From positions 1 to 53,080 of the forward strand of contig PWVL01000210.1 of the NCBI GenBank assembly GCA_003561875.1: a stretch of DNA of 53,080 bases, written 5' to 3'. This document shows, piece after piece, positions 4,712-41,367 of the stretch. The stretch comes from Desulfuromonadales bacterium (GTDB lineage Bacteria; Desulfobacterota; Desulfuromonadia; Desulfuromonadales; Syntrophotaleaceae). The first letter of the stretch is position 1. Each line of letters begins with the position of its first letter. The translations under genes and the position numbers were made by a program. The notes under the pieces are model-generated. The model saw only the letters and a list, made by a program, of their open reading frames with translations, was not told the DNA's origin and ran no database searches.

Positions 4712-4756
4712 AGGGGAAGTGTATCTGTTCGGGTGTTGTTGATCATGGAGAGATCG

Positions 4757-5803
<1,047 letters not shown>

Positions 5804-5808
5804 CGCCC

Positions 5809-8800
5809 ATGCCTTTTGAGCTTCCCATGGCCCATCTGACCCGTGCCCTTCGTGAAGGGGAGGAAAAAGAGCTGGCAGCCCTGTTGCCGGCCTGCGGTTA
5901 TCGGGAAGAAGAGAAAAGCGCTGCCAACCTGCTGTTGCTGGCGGAGCGGGGCCTGAATGAAAACCAGCTCGCCGAACTCGTCGGCAGGGCCCGCGCCAGC
6001 GCGGCACCGGACCAGGCCCTGAATGCCCTGGAACGTCTTTCCGGGGCACTTTCCACGGAGCAAATCGTCGAACTGCTGCGGGACGAGGCCGCATACACCA
6101 CGCTGCTGACGGTTCTCGGCGCCTCCCGGTTTCTGGCTACCCTGCTGTTCCGCCACCGCATTCTGCTGGAGCAACTGTTTCTGCAGGGCGGCTACCTGCA
6201 GGCTCGAAGCGAAGCGCAGATGCTTGACGAGCTGCGCCGCAACATTCCCGACACGGCCGGCTTTGAAGAGCTGCAGCAAGGCCTGCGCTTCTTCAAGCAG
6301 CAGGAAATACTGCGCATCGCCACCCGGGATCTGACCGGCCTGGCCGATCTCGCCACCACCACCGCCGAACTTTCGGATCTGGCTTCGGCCACCCTGCAGC
6401 GAGCCTATGAAATCTGCCAGCAGCTGCTTCGGGACCGCTACGGCGCTCCCCTGCTCGGCACGGACAGCGATGCCCCGGGAACCGAAGCGGCCTTCGCGGT
6501 TCTGGGCATGGGCAAGTTCGGCGGCCAGGAACTCAACTTCTCTTCCGATATCGACCTTATCTTCTGCTACAGCTGTGAAAAGGGCGAAACCGCCGGCATT
6601 GCCGACGGCGATCGGGTGCGCAACCGCATTCCCCTGCGCCAGTACTTCGTCAAGCTGGCGGAGAAGATCAACCGGGCCATGCACGAAGTGACCGCCGACG
6701 GGTTTGTGTTTCGGGTCGACCTGCGCCTGCGCCCCGAAGGCCGTTCCGGAGAAATCGCCAGCTCCTGGCGCAGCACCGAAGCCTATTACGAATACTGGGG
6801 ACAGAGCTGGGAGCGTTCGGCCATGCTCAAGGCCCGGCCGGTAGCGGGGGATCTTGAGTTCGGCAAGGCCCTGCTGCAGAGTCTGGAACCTTTCATCTAC
6901 CGTCGTTATCTCGATTACACCATGATCGAAGATCTCAAGGTGATGAAACAGAAGATCGACCACAACCTGACCCGCGAACGGGAGGGCGAACTCAATCTCA
7001 AGCTGGGGCGGGGCGGGATTCGCGAAATCGAGTTTTTCGTTCAGGCCCTGCAGATCATTCACGCCGGCAAGAATCCGGCGTTACGGGAAAAAAATTCCCT
7101 GCGTGCTCTGGAGCTGTTGCGCCAGCACGGCCTTATCGACGCCGATACCGCCGCCCTGCTCGGCCAGGCTTACAGCTTTCTGCGCACCGTGGAACATCGC
7201 ATTCAGGTGGTACAGGAACGTCAGACCCACAACCTGCCCGAGGACAGCCTGGAATTCGAGCAGTTGGGACGGCGTTGCGGCTTTGACGACCCGGAGGTTT
7301 TTCGCCGCCGATTGGAGGATTATCGGGGCGAGGTCTCGGCCATCTACCACGATCTGTTTTATACCAGTGAGGAAGAAGCGGAGGCGGTTCCGGCCCAGGT
7401 GGCCTACCTGTTTGACCCCGCGGCAGAAACGGAGGAGTTGCGGGAACTACTCAAATCCGCGGGCTTTGCCAATCCCGAAAGCGCCCTGGAAACCCTTTGC
7501 GCCCTGCGCGGCGGACCGTCCCGACATCCGCTTTCGCCCGCCGCACGCCGCCATTTTGACCGTCTGGCACCGCTGCTGATGGCGGAAATCCTGTCCCTGC
7601 CGGAGCCGGACCGGGCGTTTCGCAATCTGGAAAGGTTTCTCGGCGCCCTGCGGGCTCGAGCGACGTTTTTCGCCCTGCTGGCGGAAAACCGTCCCCTCAT
7701 CGGGCTGCTCATTTCGCTGCTGGGCAGCAGCGAGTTTCTGGCCAAAATTCTCATTCAGCACCCCGGCACCCTTGATTTTCTGGTAGCGGAACCGGAGGGC
7801 GGGCCGCAAATGGCCCGGGAAGTCCTCGAGGAGGATCTGGCCAAACACCTCGATCGTGCCGACGGCTACGAAGAGCAGCTTGATGCTCTGCGCCGCTTTC
7901 ACCACGAAGAGTTGCTGCGACTGGCCCTCGGCGATTTGCGGGGCGATCTGCCCCTGAGCCGCAACGGCGCTCAGCTCTCCCTGCTGGCGGAGGTCTGTCT
8001 GCAACAAGCTACCGTCATGGCCCGTCATGAACTGCTGGAACGTTACGGTCTGCCCTGCTGCGGCGAAGTCGACGGCAACGGCCACGAAGCCGCCTTCGCC
8101 ATTGTCGCCCTGGGAAAACTCGGCGGCGAAGAACTCAACTACCATTCGGACCTGGACATTATCTTCCTTTACGAAGATCAGGGCCGGACCCGCCCGGCGG
8201 CAATGTCCGACCCGAAGCGGTTCAAGGAGCGCAGCAACCAGGAATATTTTTCCCGGCTGGCTCAACGGATCATCTCGATTCTGAGCCTGGTAACCAGTGA
8301 AGGCCGCCTGTACGAAATCGACACCCGATTGCGCCCTTCGGGTTACCAGGGTCCCCTGGTGAGCAGCCTGCCGGCCTTTTGCGACTATCACGAGGATTCC
8401 GCCCAGCTCTGGGAACGGCAATCCCTGATCAAGGCCCGGGTGGTCGTGGGACCAGCCGATTTCGCCGCCGCCATCGACACCTCTGTGCAGCGGATCGTCT
8501 TTGAGCGCCCTCTTCCGGACAATCCGGGGAAAGAGATTCACCGGCTGCGGCAACGCATGGAGAGGTAACTGGCTCGTGAAGGGGACACCCACTACGACCT
8601 CAAAACCGGTCGTGGCGGGTTGGTGGACGTGGAATTTCTGGTGCAGTACCTGCAGCTTCTGCACGGCGCCGGGGACAGCCGGCTGCGCAGTTCCAACACC
8701 CTCGAAGCCCTCGAAGCCCTGCGCCTGGGCAACTGGCTCGATGACCAGGAAGCCCGCACCCTGAGCGACGGCTTCCGGTTTCTGCGGCAGCTGGAAAACA

Positions 8801-8985
8801 AGCTGCGACTGCTCCACGATCAATCCTTCAGTCAGTTGTCCAGGGATGCCGACTCCCTGGACGGCCTGGCGCAACGTCTGGAATATTCCGGACCACGGCC
8901 CGGAGCCCGGTTGCTGGCCGATTACCGGCACAGCACCGACGGCATTCGCCGCGTTTACGACCGCTATCTGGGCCGGAATGGATAA
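5809..8985 (+). pseudogene. glnE: glnE, bifunctional glutamine synthetase adenylyltransferase/deadenylase, interrupted by one in-frame TAA
   Basis: The frame runs 919 codons from ATG 5809 to TAA 8566-8568. It continues in the same frame for 138 more codons (LAREGDTHYDLKTGRGGLVD..., ending DRYLGRNG) to a stop at 8983-8985. The homologous position normally reads RMERELARE, so a single GAA-to-TAA change explains the break with no frameshift. The protein adenylylates and deadenylylates glutamine synthetase. The first nucleotidyltransferase motif (GMGKFGGQELNFSSDIDLIF) lies near residues 227-246 and the second (ALGKLGGEELNYHSDLDIIF) near 763-782; both keep DxD. The truncated product would lose only the C-terminal helical part of the adenylylating half. 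The start has AAGGAG 12 bases upstream; ATG 5827 is an alternative. Real pseudogene, readthrough or base-call error cannot be separated here. Confidence 0.9.
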
Positions 8986-17017: not shown

Positions 17018-17038
17018 TGGTCTGTTCCCCTTTGGTAA

Positions 17039-17296
17039 ACTAGTTTTCATCCGGAAACGGCTCTTTTCCATCGTGGCAGCGCCAATCCGCAACCTTGTTT
17101 GTGACTCGGACCATCCCTGGCCCTCGCCCCCGGGCAGCCAGGGTCTGTCCATTTCCTCTATTCTGTGGACTTGTGTAGCGTACTGTTGTACGCCTCCGCA
17201 CACGTCCTTGATTTTCTCGCTACAGCAAAACTGCTCGTTCCCAACAGGAAAACCGCGCTGTATCCATCCGGAGTTTCCGGATGGATACAAACTAGC
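17039..17296. mobile_element. MITE-like 258-bp inverted-repeat element between ftsQ and ftsA
   Basis: The left end reads CTAGTTTTCATCCGGAAAC (17039-17057). The right end, reverse-complemented, reads CTAGTTTGTATCCATCCGGA followed by AAC, an imperfect terminal inverted repeat bounded by CTAG on both sides. The right end also contains a near-perfect palindrome GTATCCATCCGGA/TCCGGATGGATAC (about 17260-17287). The interior has another hairpin, GCGTAC/GTACGC, near 17186-17202. There is no transposase frame. The ftsQ stop codon TAG (17294-17292) lies inside the terminal CTAG. The element accounts for nearly all of the 274-bp ftsQ-ftsA gap, the widest gap in an otherwise compact operon. Confidence 0.6.
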
Positions 17297-18128
17297 TCCG
17301 TCCCCGCACGGGGCGGCTGCCAAACTTGACGATAACCCGTTCGACGACGTTGAGATCAACGTAATCTATGGCCGCCAGTCGCGGCTGCAACTCCTGATAA
17401 ACCCGCTCCAGGCGGTCGAGTTTGGTGCGGTAGCCGTTCTGGCCGAAACGGATGGGGACGCCGCCGCGATAGGTATAGAGGGTGATCCCCTGGTGAGCAT
17501 CGACGCCCAGCTCCGAAACCTGATCCAGCCCGAAAATTCGCCGTTCCGCCAATTTCTGCAACAGTCCCAGGGCGCCCAGAAGCAACTCCCGGCCCTGTTC
17601 GGGGTGATCCAGCATCAACTGCCGGTCAATCCCGGAGATGAGAGGGTAATCGAGCCGGTCCCGGGCATCAAGCATTTTAAAGATTTCACCGTTATTATCA
17701 ACGTAATACAGATAGCCCAGACGAACGATCGCCTGCGGCGTGCGCTCTTCGATACGAATTCTGACTTCATTGGGGAAAACCCGCTGCACCCGCGCGGCGG
17801 CCACCCAGGGGTTTTCACTGATCTTGCTGCCGATGAGATTCAGATCCAGGTCGAAGATCCGGGTTCCCGGCGCGATGTCCGACAGGGCTACGACTTCCTC
17901 CCGGCTGAGGCGCTGGTGATTCTCCACCTGCACCGCCGCCACCATGAAAAGCTCGGAGTCGCGCAACATTCGCGCCGCCTGTCCCGCCCCCAACAGCAGC
18001 GCCGCACTGCCGGCGACAACAGCAAGAGCCTGCAGAACGCGCCGGCCGAGGTATCGCCACGGCACCGGTCGCTTCTGCTTTCTGGGGCGGTTTCTCCGCA
18101 CCGGGGTCGATTGTCTGTAACGACGCAT
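17292..18128 (-). CDS. ftsQ: Cell-division protein FtsQ
   Basis: 278 aa from ATG 18128, chosen because AGAGGT lies 6 bases upstream and this start follows the ddl stop by 8 bases. A basic cytoplasmic N-terminus (RRNRPRKQKRPVPWRYLGRR) is followed by one membrane helix (VLQALAVVAGSAALLLGAG). A POTRA domain comes next (FMVAAVQVENHQRLSREEVV, NPWVAAARVQRVFPNEVRI), then the FtsQ beta domain. FtsQ recruits FtsL and FtsB to the septum. The stop codon overlaps the CTAG end of the downstream repeat element, so the native 3' end may have been replaced or trimmed by insertion. Confidence 0.95.
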   Translation of the reverse strand: MRRYRQSTPVRRNRPRKQKRPVPWRYLGRRVLQALAVVAGSAALLLGAGQAARMLRDSELFMVAAVQVENHQRLSREEVVALSDIAPGTRIFDLDLNLIGSKISENPWVAAARVQRVFPNEVRIRIEERTPQAIVRLGYLYYVDNNGEIFKMLDARDRLDYPLISGIDRQLMLDHPEQGRELLLGALGLLQKLAERRIFGLDQVSELGVDAHQGITLYTYRGGVPIRFGQNGYRTKLDRLERVYQELQPRLAAIDYVDLNVVERVIVKFGSRPVRGRS

Positions 18129-40379: not shown

Positions 40380-40599
40380 ATAATTTCCCGAATCTAACCC
40401 TCTGAACCTTTTTGGCTCGTTCCAAGCGTCTTTGAAGCGAATAAGGGTTGAACAATAAAGAGCTTATGGCCATCCTTGCCGGCATGATCGCCAAGAGGCG
40501 ATGTCCCTTTACACCATGCTCTGCTTGAAACGAGAAACGTAGATAAGCGACAAGGCCATTCTCGGCCTTGGCACGAACATGACCGGACAGGTGAACCCA
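40380..40599. other. Unassigned sequence between yraN promoter and decayed radical SAM gene
   Basis: A hairpin CAAGGCC/GGCCTTG (about 40550-40569) is visible. Short open frames occur on both strands, but none resembles a protein I recognise. It may contain eroded upstream parts of the neighbouring pseudogene. Confidence 0.4.
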
Positions 40600-41337
40600 C
40601 CGCCTGGGACCTGTTTCTCATGGAGCACATCACCCGCCGTCAACGCTGGCTGACCAGTTGGCTGCGGTTACGGACTCTCAATCTGCGCACCTCCCGCTGC
40701 TGCCCCAACGCCCGCAGTCATCCAATGTTCCGTCGCGCTTACCGCCGGCGCCGGAATGCGCCGCCACTCGGTGGAGTAGGTAGTGAAGATGCTGAAACGG
40801 GGCTTCCACGGCTGTTCTCTCGTCACGGTACTGTTCGTAGACGGGGCCTTTGCCGCAGAGGGAGAGCGGTTGCTGCGGATCTGCCATGCGATGCAGGGAC
40901 GCGGCTGGAATAAACATCTGCAATGGGCCTGCTGCCTGCGGGCCGACCAGGCACGACCAGCGTTGCTGCGGGAAGCGGGAATACGTATCTTCGCCAATAC
41001 CATGTTCGGATTGCCCGGCGCAACCGCCACCGATATGGACAACCGCCTGAGCTTCATTCGCGCCGCGTGACCCGAGGTTCTGTTGGCCACGGCCATGATA
41101 CCGCTTCTGGGTAGGGAGCTGTACCGGAACCTGAGTCCCGAACTCGAGAGCCGCTTGGCACGGGGCGATCTACACTATTTTTGCGGCGCTCTCGAGGGTT
41201 TTCATCCCACCACCATGTGCGACACCCCGTGGGGGCAAAAATATCGGCAGGTGCAGAAATATTCCGCCGACCCCCTGCTCTGGCACCGGCTGCCGCGGGG
41301 TACCGGTGACGAGTCTTCGGTGCATGGGCAATTCTGA
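40600..41337 (+). pseudogene. Decayed radical SAM gene
   Basis: Translated fragments in two frames align in order to a radical SAM protein. First AWDLFLMEHITRRQRWL and LNLRTSRCCPN (frame of 40620). After a frameshift between about 40715 and 40760 come GMRRHSVE, a TAG at 40777-40779, VVKMLKRGF, HLQWACCLRADQ, IFANTMFGLPGATATDMDN, a TGA at 41068-41070 and PEVLLATAMIPLLGRELYRN, ending at 41337. The cluster motif expected as TSRGCPxxCxFC reads TSRCCPNARSH, so two iron ligands are lost. LPGATATD and the GRELY remnant are typical of this fold. The N-terminal part is missing or unrecognisable. Confidence 0.75.
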
Positions 41338-41367
41338 GAAAAAACCGGCGCCGTTTTCGGCGGCGCC
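41337..41367 (-). terminator. Rho-independent terminator after GGDEF/lipoprotein pair
   Basis: The perfect 8-bp stem CGGCGCCG (41345-41352 and 41360-41367) has a 7-base loop. On the minus strand it is followed by GGTTTTT. It lies 50 bases after the lipoprotein stop. Confidence 0.85.

Follow-up and report, generated by a model that had tools for sequence, protein, structure and literature searches.

GlnE, the adenylyltransferase/adenylyl-removing enzyme that acts on glutamine synthetase (GS), is organised as an N-terminal adenylyl-removing (AR, deadenylylating) half and a C-terminal adenylylating (AT) half. The GlnE of Escherichia coli (PRK11072; PDB 1v4a and 3k7d) is one described system with which the gene reported here can be compared, and constructs that hold only the C-terminal half of GlnE, which act as one-way adenylylating enzymes, are another (PMC9249168). 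Our gene lies in a window of 53,080 nucleotides, the whole stretch of DNA that was analysed, which is contig PWVL01000210.1 of a draft Desulfuromonadales genome (GCA_003561875.1). It resembles that of E. coli in having two PF03710 nucleotidyltransferase (NTase) domains, both DxD motifs and the first PF08335 domain, but differs from it in that the second PF08335 domain lies beyond an in-frame stop codon and is thus absent from the predicted product. The features of the locus are as follows.

5809–8568, plus strand: glnE as assembled, an open reading frame for a truncated GS adenylyltransferase/adenylyl-removing enzyme of 919 residues, with two PF03710 domains, one PF08335 domain and a PRK11072 match
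8137–8166, plus strand: NYHSDLDIIF, the catalytic motif of the second half, read from the translation; largely invariant among 27 relatives and located before the stop
8566–8568, plus strand: in-frame TAA at residue 920, where 30 of 30 relatives have a Glu codon
8569–8985, plus strand: untranslated remainder of glnE, 138 codons and a stop, with a PF08335 domain and matches to PDB 1v4a and 3k7d

The initial annotation, made from the window alone, had described a single in-frame TAA that splits an otherwise intact glnE, with the same frame and continuous protein similarity on both sides of it, and this description holds. The ATG at 5809 and the TAA at 8566–8568 belong to one frame with 919 codons ahead of the stop, and beyond it the frame runs on for 138 codons (LAREGD...YLGRNG) to a second TAA at 8983–8985, with no other stop and no frameshift in between. 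The window is collinear with a contig of G001, the only same-genus genome in our comparison, at about 87% DNA identity, and the two glnE genes align in a single continuous frame in which 812 of 918 codons before the stop and 115 of 137 after it are identical. The gene upstream of glnE (4733–5803) we take by eye to be mtnA-like, and the gene downstream is presumably an M23-type peptidase, also judged by eye.

Even truncated, the product exceeds the 487-bit cut-off of the NCBIfam equivalog PRK11072 with a score of 684 bits, and the read-through version scores 758 bits. A profile search finds both PF03710 domains and one PF08335 domain in the 919 residues, and the DxD pairs of both halves, together with the third Asp of the second half (D838), precede the stop, as the initial annotation had anticipated for the DxD motifs. 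A PF08335 domain follows each NTase domain only if the stop is an error; as assembled, the second is formed by the 138 residues after the stop (76.7 bits). These residues, correctly assigned beforehand to the end of the adenylylating half, contain the (K)TGRGGxVDVEF motif and the terminal helical domain of that half, include 31 columns that are invariant in an alignment of 27 relatives, and in both E. coli halves, the structures of which are solved, align to the terminal part (1v4a chain, 315–437; 3k7d chain, 393–465).

Codon 920 is GAA in G001, whose glnE is intact, and each of the 30 aligned Desulfuromonadales homologues has either GAA or GAG there, so the proposal that the stop arose from a conserved Glu codon by one G-to-T change agrees with every relative aligned. 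When the C-terminal part of glnE was used as a query, 129 of 136 genomes of the order gave matches, and among the 136 only in the window's genome is this part of the gene interrupted by an in-frame stop. Three further genomes had been flagged for internal stops; those of G009 and G066 are natural ends at residues 1056–1057, and the gene of G002 is an intact frame of 1045 residues. None of the relatives among these 136 genomes shows a natural split of glnE, that is, a natural stop with a separate gene downstream. A second genome of the window's species was not found among the genome contigs scanned, which did include same-genus G001. Frame-changing gaps break glnE in three draft genomes of the order, G007, G079 (contig C36) and G101 (contig C163), and roughly 3% of the glnE genes in the assemblies carry an interruption at some point, so an interrupted glnE is not peculiar to the window. 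In G007, which belongs to the same family, a one-base loss in a G run of glnE (C1:954500–961000, minus strand, on a contig of 3.19 Mb) shifts the frame at about locus positions 1690–1700, within the GRGG motif (residues 935–938) and 16 codons past the position of the window's stop, removing the same C-terminal segment; this loss is likely a long-read homopolymer error.

We consider it probable, on the strength of these sequence comparisons, that a bifunctional GlnE of otherwise ordinary kind has been truncated in the window's lineage by a nonsense mutation of one base, GAA to TAA, that happened recently. Every relative has a sense codon at this place and the rest of the frame is intact; the stop is most likely an ordinary nonsense allele that involves no new mechanism. 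The change at residue 920 would cut GlnE to 919 residues, leaving the AR half whole. The AT half would be left without the terminal helical domain that bears the GRGGxVDVEF motif, and for this reason we infer that adenylylating activity would be lost. GS would then be largely unadenylylated and active even when ammonium is plentiful. Given the two-half organisation of GlnE and the behaviour of the single-half constructs (PMC9249168), loss of adenylylation is expected and retention of deadenylylation is possible.

The partners of GlnE are encoded in the same genome. A type I GS gene, which retains the Tyr of the adenylylation site (DKDLYALPPEE), adjoins glnB on contig C78, GlnD is encoded on the same contig, a second PII gene lies on contig C14, and there is a strong NifH-family match. 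With all of these genes present, the gene content gives no hint of a loss of GlnE's target. No second, intact allele of glnE was found in the assembly. A match on contig C168 (1030–3078, minus strand) proved to be a separate GlnE-like protein of 683 residues with a single half, consisting of one GlnE-type NTase and a helical domain behind an N-terminal part that resembles the C-terminal regulatory region of GlnD; the gene adjoins a probable 2-oxoacid:ferredoxin oxidoreductase subunit gene and a probable GAPDH gene, and has matching sequence on contig C2 of G001.

The alternative that has to be taken most seriously is that base-calling, damage or assembly error produced the stop and that the organism's own codon is GAA, in an intact glnE. 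One substitution suffices for this, since the frame holds no second stop or frameshift, and glnE is intact in nearly all relatives of the order. The draft assembly is fragmented (239 contigs, 2.22 Mb, 89% complete), other assemblies too contain broken glnE frames, one of them (G007) in a G run of the type associated with indel errors, and G-to-T changes are a known oxidative artefact of library preparation. Against error, however, stands a survey of interruptions in which 349 kb of the window's genome were compared with 658 kb of G001 (82 genes, about 29,000 codons, counted after removal of the shadow frames that had swamped earlier scans). The only convincing interrupted gene was glnE, which argues that the assembly is not generally faulty; four weaker flags fell in antisense or poorly conserved open reading frames. 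Two other stretches of the window stand out in comparison with G001. Positions 40596–41343 are poorly conserved and show stops and frame changes against a frame of 565 residues that lies near a contig end in G001, and about 250 bases at 17038–17300 match more than 20 places in G001, some at contig ends, at 73–92% identity or better, and represent a dispersed repeat that may be a small mobile element.

The second line of evidence against error is a surplus of amino-acid changes after the stop. When differences between the window and G001 were polarised with four close relatives, amino-acid changes on the window and G001 branches numbered 12 to 1 after the stop and 32 to 31 before it (Fisher p 0.006), in a comparison of small numbers that was chosen after the stop had been seen. 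Silent changes numbered 7 to 8 and 70 to 68, respectively. Fitted branch lengths after the stop are 0.162 for the window and approximately 0 for G001, and before it 0.061 and 0.084. One of the 31 invariant columns after the stop is altered in the window (Y989F), compared with none of 205 before it. The total divergence of the two genes after the stop is about normal and hardly raised, the G001 branch being unusually low, and the variable N-terminal stretch (residues 1–184) has a similar skew of 13 to 4. The corresponding counts are 4 to 9 in the AR half and 15 to 18 in the AT half ahead of the stop. Taken together, the substitution pattern leans, suggestively, towards a real and recent stop; recent because the AT half ahead of the stop lacks the relaxation that would be expected had adenylylation long been lost. 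We rank a recent nonsense mutation, as the probable explanation, before a base error, which is possible but distinctly less likely; both had rightly been named by the initial annotation, and neither would be surprising.

It is very unlikely that the truncated protein is a maintained, selected form, a natural deadenylase-only GlnE under which GS would stay on. On the window's branch, both the AR half and the portion of the AT half ahead of the stop do evolve normally, whereas the segment beyond it looks relaxed, and the G007 frameshift would remove the same segment within the same family; but these numbers are small, same-genus G001 is intact, and the loss in G007, of one base within a run of G, is typical of long-read error. 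The wider proposition, that a maintained deadenylase-only GlnE with permanently active GS in a probable nitrogen-fixing sediment bacterium has arisen more than once in the family by the same C-terminal loss, is similarly improbable.

Readthrough of the stop, which the initial annotation had named as a competing explanation, or separate translation of the downstream part, with full function kept, has little chance of being correct. In its favour, the downstream codons are still largely conserved, but a recent mutation or an error accounts for this equally well. TAA ends six other genes of the window, and the corresponding G001 genes stop no more than 15 codons away, and no other conserved gene in the sample is broken by it. 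The in-frame starts available for reinitiation (TTG 8620, GTG 8623, 8629 and 8641) lie inside the motif and lack an obvious ribosome-binding site, and the absence of a split glnE among relatives argues against split translation. Recoding of TAA is unlikely because this codon terminates genes of the window in the normal way, and no other in-frame TAA interrupts a real gene of the sample.

If the recent nonsense mutation is real, this lineage would have lost the brake on GS and kept the release of that brake, and ammonium assimilation would be changed in a genome in which a nifH-family gene is also present. The practical point is that physiology read from single stops in assembled environmental genomes needs the reads first. 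Among described systems, the truncated GlnE is comparable to the engineered unidirectional adenylyl transferases (uATs), in which GlnE has likewise been cut down to one working half (PMC9249168). In uATs it is the adenylylating half that is kept and the deadenylylating half that is missing; the reverse would hold for the truncation in the window.
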